Part shown: in pieces, positions 6,290-64,000 of the stretch
Layout: each line of letters begins with the position of its first letter
Position numbering within the stretch: position 1 is the first letter of the stretch
Assembly (NCBI GenBank): GCA_937995655.1
Contig: CALKJI010000001.1
Span: forward strand, 1 to 64,000
Direction: 5' to 3'
Length of the DNA stretch: 64,000 bases
Source: an uncultured Pseudothermotoga sp.
Lineage (GTDB): Bacteria; Thermotogota; Thermotogae; Thermotogales; DSM-5069
Notes under the pieces: model-generated
The model's input: only the letters and a program-made list of their open reading frames with translations
Told to the model about the DNA's origin: nothing
The model's database searches: none
Position numbers and translations under genes: made by a program

Positions 6290-7420
6290 TTATTTTAGAT
6301 CCTGTACAAAATAAACCTTGGGTGAAGGTATCCCGTTGAAGTTTGTACCGTACTCGACTGTATAAGCCCCAGCATTTATGAAATAAACTATATCGTCCAA
6401 AGTTACGTTGTAGGGTAACATAGCATCGTCATAAACTTTATCCACACTGTCGCAGGTTGGACCAGCAAGAACAAATGGTATTTTCTGGTCTGATTCCTTA
6501 CCATCGACCTGTATCTCGTATCTGAAATTTTCGATAGTCTCCATCAAGCCGTGGAAAACACCAGCATCTATGTAAACCCACTCTTCGCTTCCTCTCTGGC
6601 ACCTTAGAAGAACTTTACTTACCAATATCGCTGAATTACCAACCATTGACCTACCAGGTTCTGCAAAAATTTGTAAACCTTTCACTCCATAAAGATATTC
6701 GTTGATTGACTGTGTGACTATGTGTCCGATCTCCTCAACGGTGGGTATGGGCTTTACATGCTTTACTGGAATACCTCCTCCGATGTCAAGGATCTTTAAG
6801 TTTATACCGAAATTTCGGTCTGCCCAATAGAATATCTTTGCCACTCTTTCAATTGCATTTGACCAACTGTGTGGATCATAATTCTGTGAACCAACATGAA
6901 AACTCACACCAACTGGTATCAACCTTAACTTTTGAGCATAAGCGATTAAGTCAACGGCAACCAACATATCAACACCAAATTTTCTTGACAAGGGCCAATC
7001 ACTGTGAGTGTTTTCTACAGCTACACGTATCACTACCTGTGAACCCGGTGCATTTTCAGCAATTTTGTCAAGCTCCATTACTGAATCTGCCGCAAAAAGA
7101 TCCAGACCTAGATCATAAGCTGTGGCAATATCTTTCTCACGTTTGATAGGATTTGCAAAGATCATTCTGTCTGGTGTAACACCAAGACTTACCAATTTTC
7201 TTATCTCTCCTATTGAAGCCACGTCGAAATTACTACCAAGATCTCTGAGTCTCTCAATTATTCTTGGATGGCTATTTGCTTTAATTGCGTAGAAAATCTT
7301 ACATCCAGGGATCGCTTTAGAGAGTTTTTTGTAATTCTCTTCTACTATATCCAGATCAATGAGTAAGAAAGGTGTTTCAAGGTTCCTAGCAGCTTTTCTC
7401 ACAACTTCCGTTACTTCCAC
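6290..7420 (-). CDS. PLP-dependent ornithine/lysine decarboxylase (alanine racemase fold)
   Basis: 376 residues from GTG 7420. The PLP lysine lies in FYAIKANSHP (about residue 47), the phosphate-binding glycine loop in LDIGGGIPVKH, the PLP-ring glutamate in FAEPGRSMVGNS, and the catalytic Cys in GPTCDSVDKVYDD, the eukaryotic-type ODC signature. It should decarboxylate ornithine and/or lysine to putrescine/cadaverine in polyamine synthesis. It is clearly different from the lysA fragment at the other end of the window, which has GPICESAD. The start overlaps the GAF protein stop by 10 bp. Substrate preference cannot be settled by eye. Confidence 0.88.
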   Translation of the reverse strand: MEVTEVVRKAARNLETPFLLIDLDIVEENYKKLSKAIPGCKIFYAIKANSHPRIIERLRDLGSNFDVASIGEIRKLVSLGVTPDRMIFANPIKREKDIATAYDLGLDLFAADSVMELDKIAENAPGSQVVIRVAVENTHSDWPLSRKFGVDMLVAVDLIAYAQKLRLIPVGVSFHVGSQNYDPHSWSNAIERVAKIFYWADRNFGINLKILDIGGGIPVKHVKPIPTVEEIGHIVTQSINEYLYGVKGLQIFAEPGRSMVGNSAILVSKVLLRCQRGSEEWVYIDAGVFHGLMETIENFRYEIQVDGKESDQKIPFVLAGPTCDSVDKVYDDAMLPYNVTLDDIVYFINAGAYTVEYGTNFNGIPSPKVYFVQDLK

Positions 7421-44440: not shown

Positions 44441-45451
44441 TCAGTAGAAAAGTTTTGCTAAACTTCTCAAATGCTCATCTACTATTTTTACATTGATCAT
44501 TGTTTCAGAATATGGCAACTCCGTTACAGTAAGTCCCCTCATGCCAAGTGCGTGATAGACCCTTGCCGATTTGACCATCTCGACGGCGCGTGTTGACATT
44601 TGCGTTGCAATTATTCGGTCCATACAGACAGGGCTACCGCCTCTCTGTAGATATCCAAGGTTCGTGTACCTCCATTCTATTGAAATATCTTTCAGTTTCC
44701 TTTCAATGAACATTCCTATCACTTGAGCTGCCGATGTTTTTTCATCTGTACCGGTGATATCGTACATTTCCTTAGGTAGGGTCGCTCCACTTTCAACAAC
44801 AACGATCGAGAATCTCTTTTGACTCTCATATCTGCTGCGAATTTTATTCAGGAGATCTTCTTGATCGATAGACTCAGCGTTTGTAACAACATAATCTGCT
44901 CCACCGGCAAGCCCACCGGTTACTGCTATCCAGCCACCAGGCTTTCCCATCGTTTCAACGATCATGACTCTATGGTGAGATTCGGCAGTTGCATGAAGTA
45001 TATCCAATGCTTCTCTGACGTGTTCTATGGCAGTAAAGAATCCTATTGAAAAATCTGTGAATGGCAAATCGTTGTCAATAGTAGCTGGAACCAAAACAGA
45101 CGGTATATTCGCCTTGGCAATTCTCAAAGCCGCTTTAACACCCAATCTTCCACCAAGGATGAGAAAAGAAGTTATAGAGTATTGCTCGAATTTCTTTGCG
45201 ATCTTTTGGACATCTTCCTCTTCTTGTGGAACAAACAGAGAGGTGCCCAAGATCGTTCCTCCGCGGTGTAGTATGCCAGAAACCGAAGATTTGGTCATCA
45301 CATCCACTTTGTCAAGGAGAAGTCCTTCAAAACCATCTTTTACACCCAAAATTTCAATACCTGTATCAGAGCCTTTCACCACCGTTGCCCTGATTGCTGC
45401 ATTCAATCCAGGACAATCATTTCCTACACACAACAGAGCGATTCTCTTCAT
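44441..45451 (-). CDS. Divergent phosphofructokinase homologue with altered nucleotide site
   Basis: 336 residues from ATG 45451 behind GGGAGGT. The PFK fold is clear (DCPGLNAAIRATVVKG, TIDNDL at 124-129, LGYLQRGGSPVCMDRIIATQ). Catalytic Asp126 and Asp128 are kept. The nucleotide/PPi loop is GGRLG (100-104) in place of GGDGS (ATP type) or GGDDT (PPi type), so the Mg-binding Asp is Arg and the position that separates ATP from PPi enzymes is Leu. Residue 123 is Ala, neither Gly nor Lys, and MGR is MGK. It may have a different phosphoryl donor or substrate, or be regulatory. It lies between hppA (4 bp away) and the serine dehydratase genes. Confidence 0.82.
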   Translation of the reverse strand: MKRIALLCVGNDCPGLNAAIRATVVKGSDTGIEILGVKDGFEGLLLDKVDVMTKSSVSGILHRGGTILGTSLFVPQEEEDVQKIAKKFEQYSITSFLILGGRLGVKAALRIAKANIPSVLVPATIDNDLPFTDFSIGFFTAIEHVREALDILHATAESHHRVMIVETMGKPGGWIAVTGGLAGGADYVVTNAESIDQEDLLNKIRSRYESQKRFSIVVVESGATLPKEMYDITGTDEKTSAAQVIGMFIERKLKDISIEWRYTNLGYLQRGGSPVCMDRIIATQMSTRAVEMVKSARVYHALGMRGLTVTELPYSETMINVKIVDEHLRSLAKLFY

Positions 45452-45455
45452 AAAT

Positions 45456-47402
45456 CTACCTCCCAAATAAAGAAGCTATTACGACCGATGTAATCGCCAT
45501 GAGTTTTATGAGAATATTTATCGAGGGACCAGATGTGTCTTTCAGGGGATCTCCAACTGTATCTCCTATCACTGCAGCTTTGTGTGCCAGTGACCCTTTT
45601 CCACCATAATGACCCTCTTCAACGTATTTTTTTGCGTTGTCCCAAGCACCACCCGAATTCGCCATGAAGATCGCTACCATGACACCACAGACCGTCGAAC
45701 CTATGAGCAAACCGGCCGTTCCAGTGGCACCCAAAATGAAATAACTCAAAAGAGGGCTCACAACTGCAAGCAGAGATGGAAAAACCATCCTTTTGAGAGC
45801 GCCTCTTGTAGCAATCTGAATACAACGAGCATAATCGGGTTTTCTTTGCCCAGAGACCAAGCCTGGAATTTCTCTGATCTGTCTTCTGATCTCCTCTACC
45901 ATATCATTTGCAGCGTCTCCCACCGCTTTCATCGTGATGGCACAAAACAAAAATGGTAGCATGGCACCGATCAAAGCCCCTGTGAAGAGTGAAGGAGATT
46001 TTATATCGACGGTGCTCAGATGGGTAACATTGGCATAATTAGAAAAAAGTGCCAGTGAAGTCAAGGCAGCAGATGTTATTGCAAAACCTTTCCCCATGGC
46101 GGCAGTAGTATTTCCAACAGCATCGAGTTGATCTGTGATTTGACGTGCCTTTTGTTCAAGATTCGCCATCTGAGCAATTCCACCAGCATTGTCAGCTATG
46201 GGGCCATATGCATCGACCGAAAGATTCATACCAAGTGTAGCCAGCATTCCAACAGCAGATAACGCAACACCAAAAAGCCCAAGCAGTTTATAAGAAAGCA
46301 GAACGGCAACGACTATGAGTATAGTGACAACGGCTGTCGATTCCATACCCAGCGCAAGACCGTTGATTAATATATTTGCCGGCCCTGTCGTTGCAGATCT
46401 TGCGAGATTTCCAACCTTCTTTCCAGAAGTATAAAACTCCGTCAAAAGTCCCACACTGACTCCAACAAGAACTCCAAAGAAAACTACTAGAAAGATTTCA
46501 AACCAAGTCACAAAGATTGAATATACAAAGACCGAGCCGAGCAACAAAACACCGGAAAGAATCGTTCCAAATCTCAGCGCCACCGATGGATTTGTGAATT
46601 TATGTAAAGTGAGAGTGGTTAGAATGACAGAAACAACAGAACTCAACAAGCCACAGATTACAACAAAGATAACTGCACTAATGGCCTTATCATTGCTCAT
46701 AAAACTGGCAAGTGCAAGGGCTGAGAAGATTGATCCGACATAGGATTCATACAAGTCTGCTCCCATTCCTGCCACATCACCAACGTTGTCTCCCACATTG
46801 TCGGCTATAACTGCTGGGTTCCTTGGATCGTCTTCTGGTAGATTTGCCTCTGTTTTTCCAACTATATCGGCTCCCACATCGGCAGCTTTTGTATATATGC
46901 CGCCTCCGACTCTCGCAAAGAGTGCAACAAAGGACGCACCGAGTGAATAGTAACTGACACAGGTCATATCTTGTGTAAATTCATAGACAATGCCAAGACC
47001 AAGCAAACCGAGTGCAGAGACCGTAAGCCCCATAACAGCCCCACCATTAAAAGCAATTTTCAATGCCTTTGTCATCCCAGAAAGTGCTGCCCAGCTTGTA
47101 CGGGCATTTGATTTCGTAGCGATCGTCATGCCAAAAAACCCTGCAAGAGTTGAAAAGAAAGCGCCGACGAGAAATGAAAGTGACACAGCCCAGCCAAGAA
47201 AGATAAACAAAATAACCGCCAAAGCAAAGACAACGGGAAAGAAGACCAAATACTCTTGAAACAAAAAGGATCTTGCACCTTTTTGAATTATCTGTGAAAG
47301 TTCAATTGTCCGTTCATTCCCAGGACTGTTGTCAAGAATTCTGAATGTTAAGAGAATCACATAGCCTATCGTGATTGCCGTCACTGTGAACAATACTGAC
47401 AA
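45456..47402 (-). CDS. hppA: Membrane-bound K+-dependent pyrophosphatase (ion pump)
   Basis: 648 residues from TTG 47402, seven bases after AAGGGGG; a GTG three codons earlier abuts the site. About 16 membrane helices. The substrate motif is VGADIVGKTEANLPEDDPRN and then NVGDNVGDVAGMGADLYES. At about residue 430 GNTTAAMGKG carries Ala where K+-independent enzymes have Lys, and Gly three positions on, so it is K+-dependent; such pumps move Na+ or H+. It turns PPi from biosynthesis into an ion gradient. Somewhat shorter at the N-terminus than the T. maritima homologue. Possibly read through from the dap genes 48 bp upstream. Confidence 0.95.
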   Translation of the reverse strand: MSVLFTVTAITIGYVILLTFRILDNSPGNERTIELSQIIQKGARSFLFQEYLVFFPVVFALAVILFIFLGWAVSLSFLVGAFFSTLAGFFGMTIATKSNARTSWAALSGMTKALKIAFNGGAVMGLTVSALGLLGLGIVYEFTQDMTCVSYYSLGASFVALFARVGGGIYTKAADVGADIVGKTEANLPEDDPRNPAVIADNVGDNVGDVAGMGADLYESYVGSIFSALALASFMSNDKAISAVIFVVICGLLSSVVSVILTTLTLHKFTNPSVALRFGTILSGVLLLGSVFVYSIFVTWFEIFLVVFFGVLVGVSVGLLTEFYTSGKKVGNLARSATTGPANILINGLALGMESTAVVTILIVVAVLLSYKLLGLFGVALSAVGMLATLGMNLSVDAYGPIADNAGGIAQMANLEQKARQITDQLDAVGNTTAAMGKGFAITSAALTSLALFSNYANVTHLSTVDIKSPSLFTGALIGAMLPFLFCAITMKAVGDAANDMVEEIRRQIREIPGLVSGQRKPDYARCIQIATRGALKRMVFPSLLAVVSPLLSYFILGATGTAGLLIGSTVCGVMVAIFMANSGGAWDNAKKYVEEGHYGGKGSLAHKAAVIGDTVGDPLKDTSGPSINILIKLMAITSVVIASLFGR

Positions 47403-47450
47403 AGTCTGCACCCCCTTGAAAGATTTCCTGATAGTTATATAATAGCTGAA

Positions 47451-48536
47451 TCAACTAAGTTGTGCAATAATTTGAAAGAAAAGATCACCTGCAACTTCAA
47501 TTAGATCATCAGAAGGCAAAAACCAGGGGCTGTGCAGACCGTGAGAGTTTTCTTTCTTCGTACCAAACCAGTACATCAAAGTTGGATAACGTTCTGAAAA
47601 ATATCCAAAATCTTCGGCGGTCAATTTAGTAGAAGACTCTAGAAACTTCATTTTCCTTGCGGCTACTATTTCTTTCAACTTCATGTAGAGTCTTTCATCT
47701 ACCTCGACCTGCCTGTAAGTTGAGCCTTTGATTACTTCGCAAGCTGTTCCAAAGGCCTCACAAGATGATTGTGCAATCTGTGCTATTTGACTTAGTCGGC
47801 CCTCGACTTTCTTCAGATCCTTGGATCTGATCGTACCTTGAATTAAAGCGTTGTCTGCAACTATATTTCTGGCAGAACCCGCTGTTAATTTCCCAAACCA
47901 AACTAGGTCTTGTCCCCAGTCCATTTGGTATATTTTACTTAAGAAATCTACACAAGATCTAATTGCATCCTTACCATCTTGATGAAAGGCAGCATGAACA
48001 GCTACACCTCTGAACAGAATATCTAGTTCACATGAAGCACTGAAAAGCACGCCGGATCGAGAGGCAATCATCCCTGCTTCGTATTCATCAGTCACATGCA
48101 TCGCTATCGCTGCACAGATTTTAAAATCATTTTGCTCAAGGTATTCCAACATCTGGATTGCGCCAGCTCCAGATTCTTCTGCCGGCTGAAATAGGAAGAT
48201 GAAATTACCTTTCAAATCTCTTTCCAATACTTTGCGCATTGCCCAACACACAGAGGCCATATGAAAATCGTGGCCGCAAGCATGCATGAAATTATTTTGG
48301 GATCGAAAAGCAACTCCTGTTTGCTCAACGATTGGTAGACCATCCATTTCGGCTCGGAGCAGCACATATGGACCTTCTGTAGATCTTTTCACAACAACAA
48401 TACCGGTCCCTATCTTCCTTATATCTTGATATCCAAGTTTTTCGATATAATCTATTAGTATTTTCTGTGTCTCAAACTCCTCAAAAGCTAGTTCAGGCCT
48501 TTGATGCAAAAGATGTCTCAGTTCTATTTCGTTCAA
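47451..48536 (-). CDS. M20-family amidohydrolase, probable N-acetyl-diaminopimelate deacetylase
   Basis: 361 residues from TTG 48536, six bases after GGAGG. Metal and catalytic motifs: LLRAEMDGLPI, HACGHDFHMAS, FQPAEESGAGAIQML, and GVAVHAAFHQDGKDAI in the dimer lid. M20D members cleave N-acetyl groups from amino acids. The two genes upstream make N-acetyl-LL-2,6-diaminopimelate, so this enzyme most likely releases LL-DAP. The catalytic Cys-Gly-His metal set is complete. The gene overlaps the aminotransferase end by 44 bp. Confidence 0.85.
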   Translation of the reverse strand: MNEIELRHLLHQRPELAFEEFETQKILIDYIEKLGYQDIRKIGTGIVVVKRSTEGPYVLLRAEMDGLPIVEQTGVAFRSQNNFMHACGHDFHMASVCWAMRKVLERDLKGNFIFLFQPAEESGAGAIQMLEYLEQNDFKICAAIAMHVTDEYEAGMIASRSGVLFSASCELDILFRGVAVHAAFHQDGKDAIRSCVDFLSKIYQMDWGQDLVWFGKLTAGSARNIVADNALIQGTIRSKDLKKVEGRLSQIAQIAQSSCEAFGTACEVIKGSTYRQVEVDERLYMKLKEIVAARKMKFLESSTKLTAEDFGYFSERYPTLMYWFGTKKENSHGLHSPWFLPSDDLIEVAGDLFFQIIAQLS

Positions 48537-49674
48537 AGTCAACCTCCTTGAGACTGTTTTCAAAGAGTTCTACAATCAAGTCTATCTCTTCGTAGGTAAT
48601 ATTCAACGGTGGTAGAAAGCGCACTACATTTCCATCAACGATGTTCAGCAGAATACCATTTTTGAAAGCTATCTGCTTTAAAAGATCAGGATTCACGTTT
48701 ATTTCAGCACCGACCATCAGACCAAGTCCTCTTACTTCCTTTATCAATCCGTTGTTTATAAACTTGAGCTCGTTTTTTAAATATTCACCCTTTTGCTTGA
48801 CCTGTGCAATTAGTGAGTCGTCAATCTTGTTCAAAACAACATTCGCAGCTGCCAATGCGACAGGGTTTGGTGCGAAGGTTGAACCGTGTTCAGAATATTT
48901 AAAAACATCCATAACTTGATCCAGAAAGATAGTTGCTCCAAGTGGGAGTCCCCCTCCAAGTGCCTTCGCGACGGTGATGATATCGGGTTTCAATCCAAAA
49001 TGTTCATAGCTGAAAAACCTGCCAGTCCTACCGAGTCCAGACTGAACCTCATCGGCAACCAGTAGAAAGTAATTTTTCTCCTTCAATTCCATGATAGTCC
49101 TTGCCATATTGTTGGAGATCTGTCTCAAACCACCTGTACCAAGAAGACATTCAACGAAAACGCCGGCAATCTGATTTTGTTCTACAAAACTTCTGAATGC
49201 TTCGGGATTGTTATGGGGTAAAAACACTACCTCTGGTAGAAGTGGGTTGAACTGTTCTCTGAGATTCGAAAATCCAGTTATTGAAAGAGAACCAAGAGTC
49301 CTACCGTGAAAATCTTTTTCAAAGGCTACAATTGCACCCTTCCTTAGTTTTTTAACGGCTTTCAATGCAGCTTCATTTGCCTCTGTTCCTGAGTTTGAAA
49401 AGAAAACTCTTCCCTGTCGTCTTGTTCGCTCAACAAGTTTTGCTGCAGCGATTTCGGCATCTTCATCTAATAGAAAATTTGAAACGTGAGTGTATCTTTT
49501 CATTTTGCTGATCATTGCATCTTCAATATCTCTGTCGGCATGACCGAATGCCAGAACCCCTATACCTGAAAACGTGTCAATAAACCTCTTTCCATCTTTC
49601 GCGTAAAGATAAAGACCACGTGCATAATCGATCTGTAGATCGAAAGGCCTGTAAACACCACATAAGTGATTCAC
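48493..49674 (-). CDS. Class III aminotransferase, probable N-acetyl-LL-diaminopimelate aminotransferase
   Basis: 393 residues from GTG 49674, which overlaps the dapH stop (GTGA). It resembles ArgD/acetylornithine aminotransferases: [30 protein letters not shown] (PLP phosphate), [15 protein letters not shown], and the Schiff-base Lys in [15 protein letters not shown]. Its place between dapH and the deacetylase indicates that it aminates N-acetyl-2-amino-6-ketopimelate with glutamate. A role in arginine synthesis as a bifunctional ArgD is possible but no arg gene is near. Confidence 0.85.
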
Positions 49675-50435
49675 AAAAACACCCCCCGCTCCGTTGGCAA
49701 ACTCCTCAAAGCTTCTACAATCTTGGTTTTCTCTTTGGTCTTTTCATCAACTTTCTTGATGAATCTGGCTGGAATGCCTGCAACAACCGTGAAAGGTTCT
49801 ACATCATTTATAACGACTGCACCGGCTGCAACAACGGCACCTCTACCAACGGTTACGCCCTCTAAGACAACGGCATTCGCACCGACTATGACATCATCTT
49901 CAATAACAACAGGTTTTGCACTTGGTGGCTCTATAACTCCTGCTATCACGGCACCAGCACCGATATGACAGTTTTTACCAATGATAGCTCTTCCGCCAAC
50001 TACAGCGTTCATGTCGATCATCGTTTTTTCACCTATTATCGCACCGATGTTTATAACGGCACCCATCATGATGACTGCGCCATCACCGATCTGAACAAGG
50101 TCTCGAATGATCGCACCGGGTTCAATTCTTGCATTATACTTTGTCAGATCTGCCAAAGGAAGAGCTGAATTTCTTGCATGTACTTGGACATAAATGTCTT
50201 CGATTTTGTCCTGATTCTCCTCAACGAATCTTCTGAGTTCCTCATACTCACCGATGATTATTCCAAAGCTCTGATTTCCAAAGAAATGAAGATCGCCAAG
50301 ATCAGCCTTCTTGAAGTTTCCTTTCACGTAAGCAGTTACTGGTGTTCTCTTCTTCGACTTACTGATCAATTCAATGATTGAGTTGGTTGTCAAATTCTGC
50401 GTAAGATTTTCACTTTCAACCTGAATCTCTGCCAT
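49671..50435 (-). CDS. dapH: Tetrahydrodipicolinate N-acetyltransferase DapH
   Basis: 254 residues. The N-terminal domain ([20 protein letters not shown]) is DapH_N; the rest is a left-handed beta helix of hexapeptide repeats ([60 protein letters not shown]). It acetylates tetrahydrodipicolinate with acetyl-CoA, the committed step of the acetylated branch to meso-DAP and lysine. ATG 50435 follows GGGGGAG. No promoter is obvious between it and the terminator 50 bases upstream, which suggests that its expression depends on read-through. Confidence 0.95.
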
Positions 50436-50485: not shown

Positions 50486-50521
50486 AAAAAGAAAACCGGG
50501 CTACCTTTATGGTAGCCCGGT
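50486..50521 (-). terminator. Rho-independent terminator between leader peptide and dapH
   Basis: On the minus strand an 11-bp perfect stem (511-521 side with 495-505 side: arms ACCGGGCTACC and GGTAGCCCGGT) with a 5-base loop is followed by TTTCTTTTT. It ends 50 bases before the dapH start. Because the 5' arm can also pair with the leader reading frame (see the attenuator entry), it may be conditional. Confidence 0.88.
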
Positions 50522-50583
50522 GATCTTTTCCCTTTAAGCTGTGTGCTACAACACATGCACACCGCCTGGTATGATCACCGGGC
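50515..50583 (-). promoter_or_regulatory. Candidate attenuator: antiterminator pairing across the dapH leader
   Basis: GCCCGGTGATC (plus strand 50515-50525) is the exact reverse complement of GATCACCGGGC (50573-50583). In the minus-strand RNA the second site lies in codons 23-26 of the leader frame and the first includes seven bases of the 5' arm of the terminator. The two pairings are mutually exclusive. A local hairpin (50561-50566 with 50581-50586, extended to 10 bp with one T-G opposition) and another (50541-50546 with 50557-50562) complete an array of three stems, as in classical amino-acid leader RNAs. Mechanism is inference; the repeats are seen. Confidence 0.6.
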
Positions 50584-50650
50584 GGTTGCACTTCTTAGCA
50601 TTCTTCATCTCTATAGAAATTTGCTCAAAGAAATTTTTCACCATACTCAA
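50546..50650 (-). CDS. Short leader or signalling peptide upstream of dapH (34 aa)
   Basis: A 34-codon frame from TTG 50650 to TAG, ending in P-V-I-I-P-G-G-V-H-V-L. GGGAGG at 50659-50664 is 8 bases before the TTG; ATG 50644 (32 codons) is also possible with AAGG. The middle is charged and helical (FFEQISIEMKNAKKC) with a Lys-Lys-Cys at 19-21. It is followed by the terminator and then dapH. It could be a leader peptide whose translation controls the terminator, or a small secreted/GG-type peptide. It is too short for ordinary gene finders. No promoter is certain; TATGAT at 50675-50680 (minus) is a candidate -10. Confidence 0.6.
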   Translation of the reverse strand: MSMVKNFFEQISIEMKNAKKCNRPVIIPGGVHVL

Positions 50651-50843
50651 AAAACCTTCCTCCCTTTTGCACATATCATACTATGCTCAATAGGAATTTG
50701 TGATTGAAGATATGAATAAAAGTTATTGAAGAACATGTTAACGTCTAAAAGTCACTACTATGTTGTACCTTGGTACTAAAGTTGATCACAGAAGATTGAT
50801 TCCTTAATTTTATAAATGACTTCTACCAAGAAATCACATAAGG

Positions 50844-50884: not shown

Positions 50885-52147
50885 ATGGCCGAAAGAGTCG
50901 CAATACTTGTAGGTGGAGGCCCAGCACCTGGCATCAACAGTGTCATAAATGCCGTGACAATTGAAGCTATCAACAACGATCTTGAAGTCGTCGGCATTTA
51001 TGATGGCTTTGAGCACCTAATGAAAGGTAGAACCGATATGATCCGCCCACTCAATATTTCAGATGTTTCACGCATTCATATCGAGGGTGGTTCAATTCTT
51101 AGGACCTCAAGGGCAAATCCAACCAAGAAACCTGAAGATCTTCAAAATGTTTTGAAAAGTCTCAGAGGTCTCAAGATCAATTACCTAGTGACCATAGGCG
51201 GTGATGATACAGCATTTTCTGCTTCCGCCGTATCGAAGATAAGCGAAGGTACAATTAAAGTTGCACACGTCCCAAAGACGATTGATAATGATTTACCTCT
51301 GCCTGGCGGTATGCCAACCTTTGGGTTTGAAACTGCCAGACATCTGGGTACGGAGCTTGTATACAATTTGATGCAAGATTCAAGAACAACCAACAGATGG
51401 TACTTTGTTGTCGCTATGGGCAGAAAGGCAGGACACCTGGCACTTGGAATAGGAAAAGCAGCGAGTGCAGCCTTAACTGTAATTGGCGAAGAGTTCAAAA
51501 ATGAAAAGATAACGGTCTCAGAAGTCTGTGATGTACTGGAAACCACAATACTCAAAAGGCGTGTGCTGGGTAGAAACGATGGTCTTGCAATAATAGCCGA
51601 AGGCATAGGGGAGATGATCGACCCACAAGAGCTGGCAAATATTCCCGGTGTGATGGTTGAACGAGACCCACACGGGCACATAAGATTGAGTGAGATACCC
51701 CTTGCCACGATACTCAAACGTGAAGTCCAAAAGCGTTTCGCTGAGCGAGGAGAAAAGATCAATATCATAGATGTCACATTGGGTTACGAACTAAGGTGTG
51801 CAAGACCAATTCCATTCGATATCGATTATACTAGGACCTTAGGGTTTGGTGCAGTCAGATTCTTACTCGGAGACTTTGAGAAAGATCTATCTGGCGGCAT
51901 GATTTGTGTTGAAAGTGGAAGGATTAAGGTCCTACCCTTTGAAGAACTCATCGATCCAGTGACCGGTAGAACAAAGGTACGCATGGTCGATATTAACTCT
52001 GAACATTATCGAGTCGCACGTGGCTACATGATAAGACTGACTAAAAAAGATCTCCAGGACAACAACATGCTTACAAAATTGGCAAACCTGGCGAAGATGA
52101 GTGTTGAGGAATTTCTCAAAAGATTCTCATGGGTTGCAGAAATATAA
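50885..52147 (+). CDS. pfp: Pyrophosphate-dependent 6-phosphofructokinase
   Basis: 420 residues. The donor-site loop is TIGGDDT (residues 104-109) and the following loop is VPKTIDNDLPLPGG (130 on), i.e. Asp and Lys at the two positions that mark PPi rather than ATP enzymes. Also MGRKAGHLALGIGKAAS and GYELRCARPIPFDI. It phosphorylates fructose 6-phosphate with PPi, reversibly, in glycolysis. Length fits the T. maritima PPi-PFK type. GGGGTG precedes the ATG. It is a single gene closed by a terminator at 52148-52170. Confidence 0.95.
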   Translation: MAERVAILVGGGPAPGINSVINAVTIEAINNDLEVVGIYDGFEHLMKGRTDMIRPLNISDVSRIHIEGGSILRTSRANPTKKPEDLQNVLKSLRGLKINYLVTIGGDDTAFSASAVSKISEGTIKVAHVPKTIDNDLPLPGGMPTFGFETARHLGTELVYNLMQDSRTTNRWYFVVAMGRKAGHLALGIGKAASAALTVIGEEFKNEKITVSEVCDVLETTILKRRVLGRNDGLAIIAEGIGEMIDPQELANIPGVMVERDPHGHIRLSEIPLATILKREVQKRFAERGEKINIIDVTLGYELRCARPIPFDIDYTRTLGFGAVRFLLGDFEKDLSGGMICVESGRIKVLPFEELIDPVTGRTKVRMVDINSEHYRVARGYMIRLTKKDLQDNNMLTKLANLAKMSVEEFLKRFSWVAEI

Positions 52148-63393: not shown

Positions 63394-64000
63394 GTAGTTC
63401 TTTCCCGTTCCAGATGATCTCTTTTGGTTTTGGTATCAGATTGTAATCGGATGCCATGGCATAACCGTAGGCTCCCACATCGCATATAGCTACATACTCA
63501 CCTTCTTGCGGTTCTGCCATGGTATATGATTTTCTGAACGTGTCCGCGCTTTCACAGATGGGCCCAACGATATCTGCTTTGATTTTCTTTCTGTTTTTCG
63601 TCTCGTACAAAGGAATTATCTTATGTTTTGCCCCATACAGGGCTGGTCTTATGAGATGAGTCATACCTGTATCGAGCATAATGAAGATTTTACTTGAGGT
63701 TCTCTTCACATATTCTACTCTGGCAACCAGGTATGCCGAAGGTGCGACAATCCATCGACCCAGCTCTAAGATGATTGTCGAGTCAAATTCCTTAAGAATG
63801 GGAAAGATCTTTTGTTTGTAATCTCCAAGATCAAGAACCTTACCGTTGCCATAGTCTATACCCCAGCCACCACCAAGGTTCAGTACCTTTAACTTTAAAT
63901 TCATCGATTTTGCAAAGTATTTTATGGAGACAACTGCCTCGAGATACGGTTCTACTTCTGTGATTTGCGAACCTATATGACAGTGAAGGCCTATGAAATC
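63380..64000 (-). CDS. lysA: Diaminopimelate decarboxylase, C-terminal part (5' end beyond window)
   Basis: 207 codons are inside the window and the frame is open to the edge, so the N-terminal half, with the PLP lysine, is missing. Visible: the GLHCHIGSQI loop, the glycine loop LNLGGGWGIDYG, PLP-contact ELGRWIVAPSAYLV, and the catalytic Cys with GPICESADTF, then the Tyr in VGAYGYAMASDYN. It removes CO2 from meso-DAP to give L-lysine, the last step after the dap genes at 47-50 kb. Alternatively a related decarboxylase, but the ESAD motif favours LysA. Convergent to the YbjQ gene. Confidence 0.9.
   Translation of the reverse strand, partial: DFIGLHCHIGSQITEVEPYLEAVVSIKYFAKSMNLKLKVLNLGGGWGIDYGNGKVLDLGDYKQKIFPILKEFDSTIILELGRWIVAPSAYLVARVEYVKRTSSKIFIMLDTGMTHLIRPALYGAKHKIIPLYETKNRKKIKADIVGPICESADTFRKSYTMAEPQEGEYVAICDVGAYGYAMASDYNLIPKPKEIIWNGKELLRSS

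Follow-up and report, generated by a model that had tools for sequence, protein, structure and literature searches.

A putative lysine leader-peptide attenuator upstream of dapH in an uncultured Pseudothermotoga, and leaders of the same build in other Thermotogota

Results

The window, which is the whole stretch of 64,000 nucleotides analyzed here from an uncultured Pseudothermotoga sp. (genome G000), contains a minus-strand operon that begins with dapH, encoding tetrahydrodipicolinate N-acetyltransferase (49671..50435; NCBIfam TIGR03532, E = 2.6e-106, above cut-off; Pfam DapH_N). It continues with an acetylornithine/acetyl-DAP-type aminotransferase gene that overlaps dapH by 4 nt (48493..49674; TIGR00707, E = 9e-111, below cut-off) and, as the third gene, an M20-type amidohydrolase (47451..48563; TIGR01891, above cut-off) that is probably N-acetyl-diaminopimelate deacetylase. 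At the right window end lies lysA, which scores over the NCBIfam cut-off (minus strand, window positions 63398-64000, continuing to 64525), and the left part holds a gene for a second LysA-like decarboxylase (6299-7402, minus strand). The genome has dapH, the aminotransferase, the amidohydrolase, lysA, and a DAPDH-like protein (C2:74589), but no dapA or dapB was recognizable by homology in G000, nor in G003, G005, G006, G009, and G010. Judged by gene content, the lysine route of G000 would be incomplete or unusual; without these two genes the full route is unproven and the source of the DapH substrate remains open. The lysine leader described below is nevertheless retained even in relatives that share this gap.

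The operon has neighbors of another kind, namely PFK-like and pyrophosphatase-like genes at 44441-45466 (minus strand), 45456-47411 (minus strand), and 50885-52147 (plus strand). Two phosphofructokinase-like genes flank the operon and one of them adjoins the membrane pyrophosphatase-like gene, although only the second was confirmed as a phosphofructokinase. These genes suggest PPi-linked glycolysis.

An earlier sequence-only reading had described a 34-codon minus-strand frame with a strong ribosome binding site upstream of dapH, followed by a terminator and then by dapH with no obvious promoter of its own, and all of its coordinates proved exact. The leader peptide frame (MSMVKNFFEQISIEMKNAKKCNRPVIIPGGVHVL, then the stop; 50546..50650, minus strand) comprises 34 codons from TTG at 50650 or 32 from ATG at 50644, ends with TAG at 50548-50546, is preceded by a strong Shine-Dalgarno sequence (GGGAGGAAGG, 50655..50664), and is kept in nine genomes. 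The TTG is absent from G009 while the ATG is kept there, and because start contexts vary among genomes the exact start remains uncertain. The putative control codons, Lys19-Lys20 (AAG AAG), occupy 50591..50596, and a third conserved Lys codon, Lys16, lies at 50605-50603; the pattern K16xxK19K20 was found in 9/9 dapH leaders.

A consensus scan identified one weak site upstream of the frame, the sole minus-strand promoter-like site nearby, as the probable leader promoter (50675..50704; ATCACA at 50704-50699, an 18-nt spacer, and TATGAT at 50680-50675; 9/12 matches). The same -10 and -35 elements with 18-nt spacing occur in two relatives (G009 and G010), and transcription is inferred to start at approximately 50668. 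Downstream of the frame, the intrinsic terminator (50487..50521) consists of 11 pairs between arms 50521-50511 and 50505-50495, followed by the T tract TTTCTTTTT; its stem is invariant in the nine genomes and ranks among the longest found in the 44-57 kb region. The scan, which is not a mapped start, detected no promoter-like site between the terminator and dapH, and thus a promoter between 50440 and 50490, which would have refuted the earlier proposal, was not seen. We also observed that the terminator stem GGGCTACC/GGTAGCCC of the dapH leaders (L033-L041) is invariant across three genera, including the CTACC half that is not tied to the antiterminator strand.

The central pairing of the leader was confirmed to the base. 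As had been proposed, an exact 11-nt repeat allows codons 23-26 to pair with 50525-50515: the segment GCCCGGTGATC (50583-50573) is the exact complement of that stretch and overlaps the 5' arm of the terminator by 7 nt. In RNA terms, segment A (GCCCGGUGAUC, 50573..50583) is the antiterminator strand, and segment C (GAUCACCGGGC, 50515..50525) can pair either with A to form the antiterminator or, through its 3' part, with D, the 3' arm of the terminator. Folding agrees with the earlier claim that the two structures exclude each other. The duplex between frame and terminator region reaches -27.8 kcal/mol versus -16.5 +/- 2.9 for shuffled frames, a value attained by only 5 of 5000 shuffles, and the A:C pairing is therefore not a product of chance. 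The whole-leader fold also lies far below its shuffles (z = -5.3).

Two further elements had escaped the sequence-only reading. Segment A lies in the upper part of a protector hairpin whose foot carries the Lys codons; in the minimum free energy fold, UGCAACCGCC (50590-50581) pairs with GGCGGU-g-UGCA (50566-50556) over 50556..50590, and this hairpin explains how transcription can terminate in the absence of a ribosome. A second hairpin surrounds the stop codon (GUGUGC at 50562-50557 with GCACAC at 50546-50541; 50541..50562), with UAG at the end of its loop, and folding indicates that it is compatible with the antiterminator and thus fits the antiterminated state.

The proposal that a ribosome held at Lys19 would free the antiterminator strand, whereas a ribosome that has moved on would cover it, was examined by masking the ribosome footprint codon by codon at 37-75 C in a transcript that lacked the 3' terminator arm, and both halves of the proposal held in this folding model. 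The A:C probability was 0.97-1.00 with the ribosome at Lys19 and 0.64-0.67 at Lys20, and it fell to 0.00-0.01 at codons 21-23. Comparison of the two pairings gave a divided result, as a ribosome at Lys19 or Lys20 favors the antiterminator for as long as the 3' arm is still missing, but the finished terminator wins at equilibrium for nearly every ribosome position at 37-65 C. In the complete transcript at 75 C, A:C reached 0.51 only at Lys19 among the positions tested. Equilibrium folding of the finished transcript thus predicts no antitermination, except in part with the ribosome at Lys19 or Lys20, and the model requires kinetic folding in the order of transcription. Segment A would likewise be left free by a ribosome that pauses on the stop codon of the dapH frame, unlike in the trpB2 leaders of family f1 described below, so quick release from the stop codon must be assumed.

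Conservation was examined in 11 genomes of the same GTDB family, 10 of which possess dapH; the remaining one, G001 (71% complete), gave only weak matches to other hexapeptide proteins. The same leader lies upstream of dapH in nine genomes from three genera, and in the tenth (G008) dapF and dapH form one operon with a leader of this kind before dapF. The peptides read KxxKKCNRPV, or KxxKKRSRPV in G002, and AAG AAG is kept in all nine leaders despite having no part in the main pairings. The single in-frame alignment gap measures 3 nt, while gaps after the stop codon measure 1-2 nt. In G002 the protector helix ACCGCC/GGCGGU is re-made as GCAGCCGCC/GGCGGCUGC, a paired double change from A-U to G-C, and the stop-codon hairpin is re-made with other bases (GUGUGC/GCACAC to UUGCGC/GCGCAA); MAFFT places segment B, the 3' strand of the protector hairpin, 3 nt off in this genome. 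Frame, KxxKK motif, and 11-bp pairing are all kept in relatives, as the earlier reading required. Its expectation for the alignment upstream of dapH was fulfilled for the Lys-Lys codons but barely at all for covariation, since the A:C and C:D stems hardly vary within the dapH set and carry little of it.

A covariance model of the nine dapH leaders was then run on 103 Thermotogota genomes, and it placed the switch in a phylum-wide class that the earlier reading had not recognized. Leaders of the same build precede asd in nine f2 genomes and one f5 genome, dapA in G002, G004, and G008, dapF in G008, and an amino-acid ABC transporter in f1 and f9. A threonine leader (L064; G002 C1:390988-391108, minus strand; peptide ...GTTTTSNCPP..., with a long control-codon hairpin) precedes homoserine dehydrogenase, although among 30 homoserine dehydrogenase loci only that of G002 has a leader. 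The model also matched a site before trpB2 in G080 (peptide ...VWWWKMGNCPP...). Three other matches (L051, L054, and L067) were dismissed as chance, as they lie at the 3' ends of long genes without a leader.

A direct scan of the window's own genome, independent of the covariance model, recovered with scores of at least 29.5 the leaders of dapH, the transporter, and trpB2 (QWWWYCPDSVG, then the stop), together with one unassigned short frame of 15 codons before an unidentified 323-aa protein (C1:67259; score 29.5). Four candidates score at least 27 in the real genome versus none in 30 genomes with shuffled leaders. The leader of the met operon (NVMAMIMCIYAPGG...), which precedes a MetH, aspartokinase, and asd cluster, scores 23, and matches below 23 were not accepted.

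Leaders with WWW occur upstream of trpB2 in families f1, f2, and f3, and MIM leaders occur upstream of the met operon in four f1 genomes, including G003 and G005. The trpB2 leader of G000 lies at C9:179968-179996 (plus strand), before trpB2 at 180029-181297, and its Trp codons, like those of the other trpB2 leaders, are in or at the 5' arm of a hairpin; its relatives are L180-L187, L194, L197-L200, L203, L204, L207, L208, and L056. From these arrangements, the WWW or WWWW leaders before the TrpB2-type gene in three Thermotogales families are predicted to be Trp attenuators, and the TTTT leader before homoserine dehydrogenase in G002 a Thr attenuator. The MAMIM or IMIM leader before the MetH-aspartokinase-asd operon (G000 C4:64422-64450, plus strand; relatives L240, L241, and L243) is a probable Met attenuator. 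For the leader before the polar amino-acid ABC transporter (G000 C7:57266-57384, minus strand; relatives L059-L061 and L046-L048), the signal may be His rather than Lys, as f1 and f9 keep K-H at -7/-6 and the codon scans frequently have their peak at His.

Folding of each leader revealed a common plan. Each has a hairpin whose 5' arm holds the control codons within it or at its foot, and whose upper part supplies most of the strand that pairs with the terminator. In lysine and threonine leaders the frame stops after or near the hairpin end, and in f1 trpB2 leaders it stops in the 3' arm, where the Tyr codon (TAT/TAC) and the stop (TAA/TAG) change together between G000 and G009. In 23/23 lysine leaders, which stand before four different genes in three families, the antiterminator opens at a codon (CCN, or CTG in G012) that lies exactly four codons after a Lys codon, against a genome Lys frequency of 7.1%. 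These 23 leaders are not independent, because some are clearly copies of one another.

We also scanned the leaders codon by codon with a program that was not told the control codon and scored the position at which a ribosome most disfavors the terminator. With a 12-nt leading edge, the peak fell on Lys in 9/9 dapH leaders, on Trp in 16/17 trpB2 leaders, and on Thr in the one hom leader; with 14 nt it did so in 9/9, 14/17, and again the hom leader, and with 16 nt it moved upstream by approximately one codon, as expected. Among 14 asd, dapA, and dapF leaders scanned at 12 nt, 10 peaked at Lys itself, and the others peaked beside a Lys or two codons off (dapF of G008). The high stability of the finished terminator kept many of the absolute changes small.

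The alignment of asd leaders yielded no pair changed on both sides, as no variation occurs in the stems and the upstream part of C, which does vary, is misaligned; partner swapping was therefore used instead. Across 52 leaders, native A:C pairings were stronger than those formed after exchanging partners, a result matched in 0 of 20000 permutations. Six dapA, dapF, asd, and hom leaders each paired best with their own partner (21 of 20000 permutations), and the test is powerless for the dapH set alone because its strands are nearly identical.

The lysine riboswitch (RF00168) was absent from the window and from all 11 family genomes, with Thermotoga maritima as the positive control. It was present in 57/103 Thermotogota genomes and in 0/20 genomes with a lysine leader. 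Within family f2, genera g7-g9 carry the riboswitch (9/9) with no lysine leader detected, and genera g5 and g6 carry the leader before asd (9/11) with no riboswitch, the two misses being incomplete genomes. On this distribution, the lysine leaders apparently replace the riboswitch used by their cousins.

Discussion

We consider it very likely, on computed and comparative grounds and without expression data, that the dapH leader is a ribosome-mediated transcription attenuator that senses lysyl-tRNA. A device of this type should have a short translatable frame with a Shine-Dalgarno sequence between promoter and terminator, mutually exclusive terminator and antiterminator structures with a protector hairpin, control codons for the product amino acid at the point where a stalled ribosome flips the structure, and a controlled gene that serves the amino acid being read. 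The leader meets all four, the last through a DapH equivalog, even though dapA and dapB went undetected. With Lys-tRNA in good supply, or with the leader untranslated, the protector hairpin would occupy A, C would pair with D, and transcription would stop. When Lys-tRNA is scarce, the ribosome would halt at Lys19 or Lys20, its leading edge would keep the foot of the hairpin open, A would pair with C, and the dapH operon would be transcribed. Such a device would stand in for the lysine riboswitch in this lineage. The original suggestion of a lysine leader-peptide attenuator is thus well supported by computation, but the response to lysine in vivo is still inferred, as is the rise of read-through with uncharged cognate tRNA.

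It is conceivable, though we think it very improbable, that the nascent peptide KKCNRPV itself stalls the ribosome in concert with lysine or some other ligand, in the manner of TnaC and tryptophan, and that no codon starvation is involved. This peptide is nearly invariant among dapH leaders, and the stop codon sits in a hairpin. The invariant part, however, is dictated by RNA pairing, since segment A and the hairpin are built from codons 21-26. The other lysine leaders have just the Lys codons and the CCN codon in common (KRSCPL, KHNCPL, and KRYCPV), or nearly so (KHSRLV), and runs of Thr, Trp, or Met replace Lys at approximately the same place before matching genes. An arrest peptide of the TnaC type should keep its sequence, but the peptide after Lys varies between leaders while codon position and pairing remain constant.

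An RNA that binds a metabolite or tRNA, such as an unrecognized lysine riboswitch or a T-box-like element with an incidental frame, deserves slightly less credence still. A highly structured leader before a lysine gene would suit it, but no Rfam family, T-box included, matched the window at the gathering score, and RF00168 is missing throughout the family as noted above. The frame is also kept, as its only in-frame gap of 3 nt attests, the switch strand lies within the coding part, and control codons follow the amino acid of the gene in leaders of the same build. Least likely of all is that the terminator ends the leader transcript constitutively, that the upstream repeat is accidental, and that dapH is expressed from its own promoter. 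The terminator is strong, no transcripts have been mapped, and the pairing hardly varies within one family, all of which would permit this explanation; yet the pairing is kept across families in leaders of different sequence, no promoter-like site follows the terminator, and four such leaders occur in the genome against none in the shuffles.

Beyond the lysyl-tRNA attenuator at dapH, it is likely, though we hold this with less assurance, that a phylum-wide attenuator family exists with its own geometry, in which the foot of a hairpin carries the control codons and its upper part, still within the frame, provides the antiterminator strand. Its members would sense Lys, Trp, Met, and Thr (perhaps His), would have been copied between operons, and, in at least one family and probably others, would have taken over from the lysine riboswitch at the same operons. 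A coherent switch family in a thermophilic phylum far removed from Proteobacteria and Actinobacteria points to an older, or more readily re-invented, mechanism than has been supposed, and it implies that ribosome and RNA polymerase are closely coupled in these organisms. The occurrence of riboswitch and attenuator at the same operon in sister genera also offers a natural exchange series for asking why one replaces the other.

The enterobacterial trp, his, thr, and leu operons are governed by leader-peptide (ribosome-mediated) attenuators (summarized in PMC3766115), and the dapH leader resembles them in its short frame, control codons that match the operon product, protector hairpin, antiterminator, and terminator. 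In trp, the 3' arm of the first hairpin, located at the stop codon or beyond it, serves as the antiterminator strand, whereas the dapH leader carries this strand within the frame, in the upper portion of the control-codon hairpin, and has its stop codon in an additional hairpin. For the lysine cluster of Thermus thermophilus, Tsubouchi et al. (2005, J Biol Chem) reportedly described a lysine leader-peptide attenuator. By description alone, that leader is similar in its tandem Lys codons, leader peptide, transcription attenuation, and link to lysine synthesis; it is said to differ in belonging to another phylum and in serving the alpha-aminoadipate route (hcs).

Two published surveys place riboswitches ahead of the lysine operon in Thermotogae (PMC5584792) and in most Thermotogales (PMC3766115), and the portions consulted report no alternative to the lysine riboswitch in Thermotogota. 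The riboswitch (RF00168; Thermotoga, Thermosipho, and other Thermotogota) is similar to the leaders in serving the same asd-dap operons under control by lysine supply, but it binds lysine directly through a large aptamer and does not need translation. The Rfam attenuator motifs, according to PMC3766115, cover His, Leu, Thr, and Trp only. Predicted ribosome-mediated attenuators with tandem Cys or Phe codons have also come from comparative RNA work (uORFC-8-2 and uORFC-13-1; PMC8632094), although these belong to cysS in Rhodobacterales and aroF in Acholeplasma, and the sections of that article at hand contain neither a lysine leader nor a Thermotogota element of this kind. Our open-access literature search found no report of leader-peptide attenuation in Thermotogota. 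Leader-peptide attenuation has mostly been described in Proteobacteria and Actinobacteria, with the lysine genes of Thermotogota placed under riboswitches (PMC5584792, PMC3766115). The mechanism is known in kind, and what appears to be new is the lineage, the hairpin plan, the breadth of amino acids covered, and the swap with a riboswitch.
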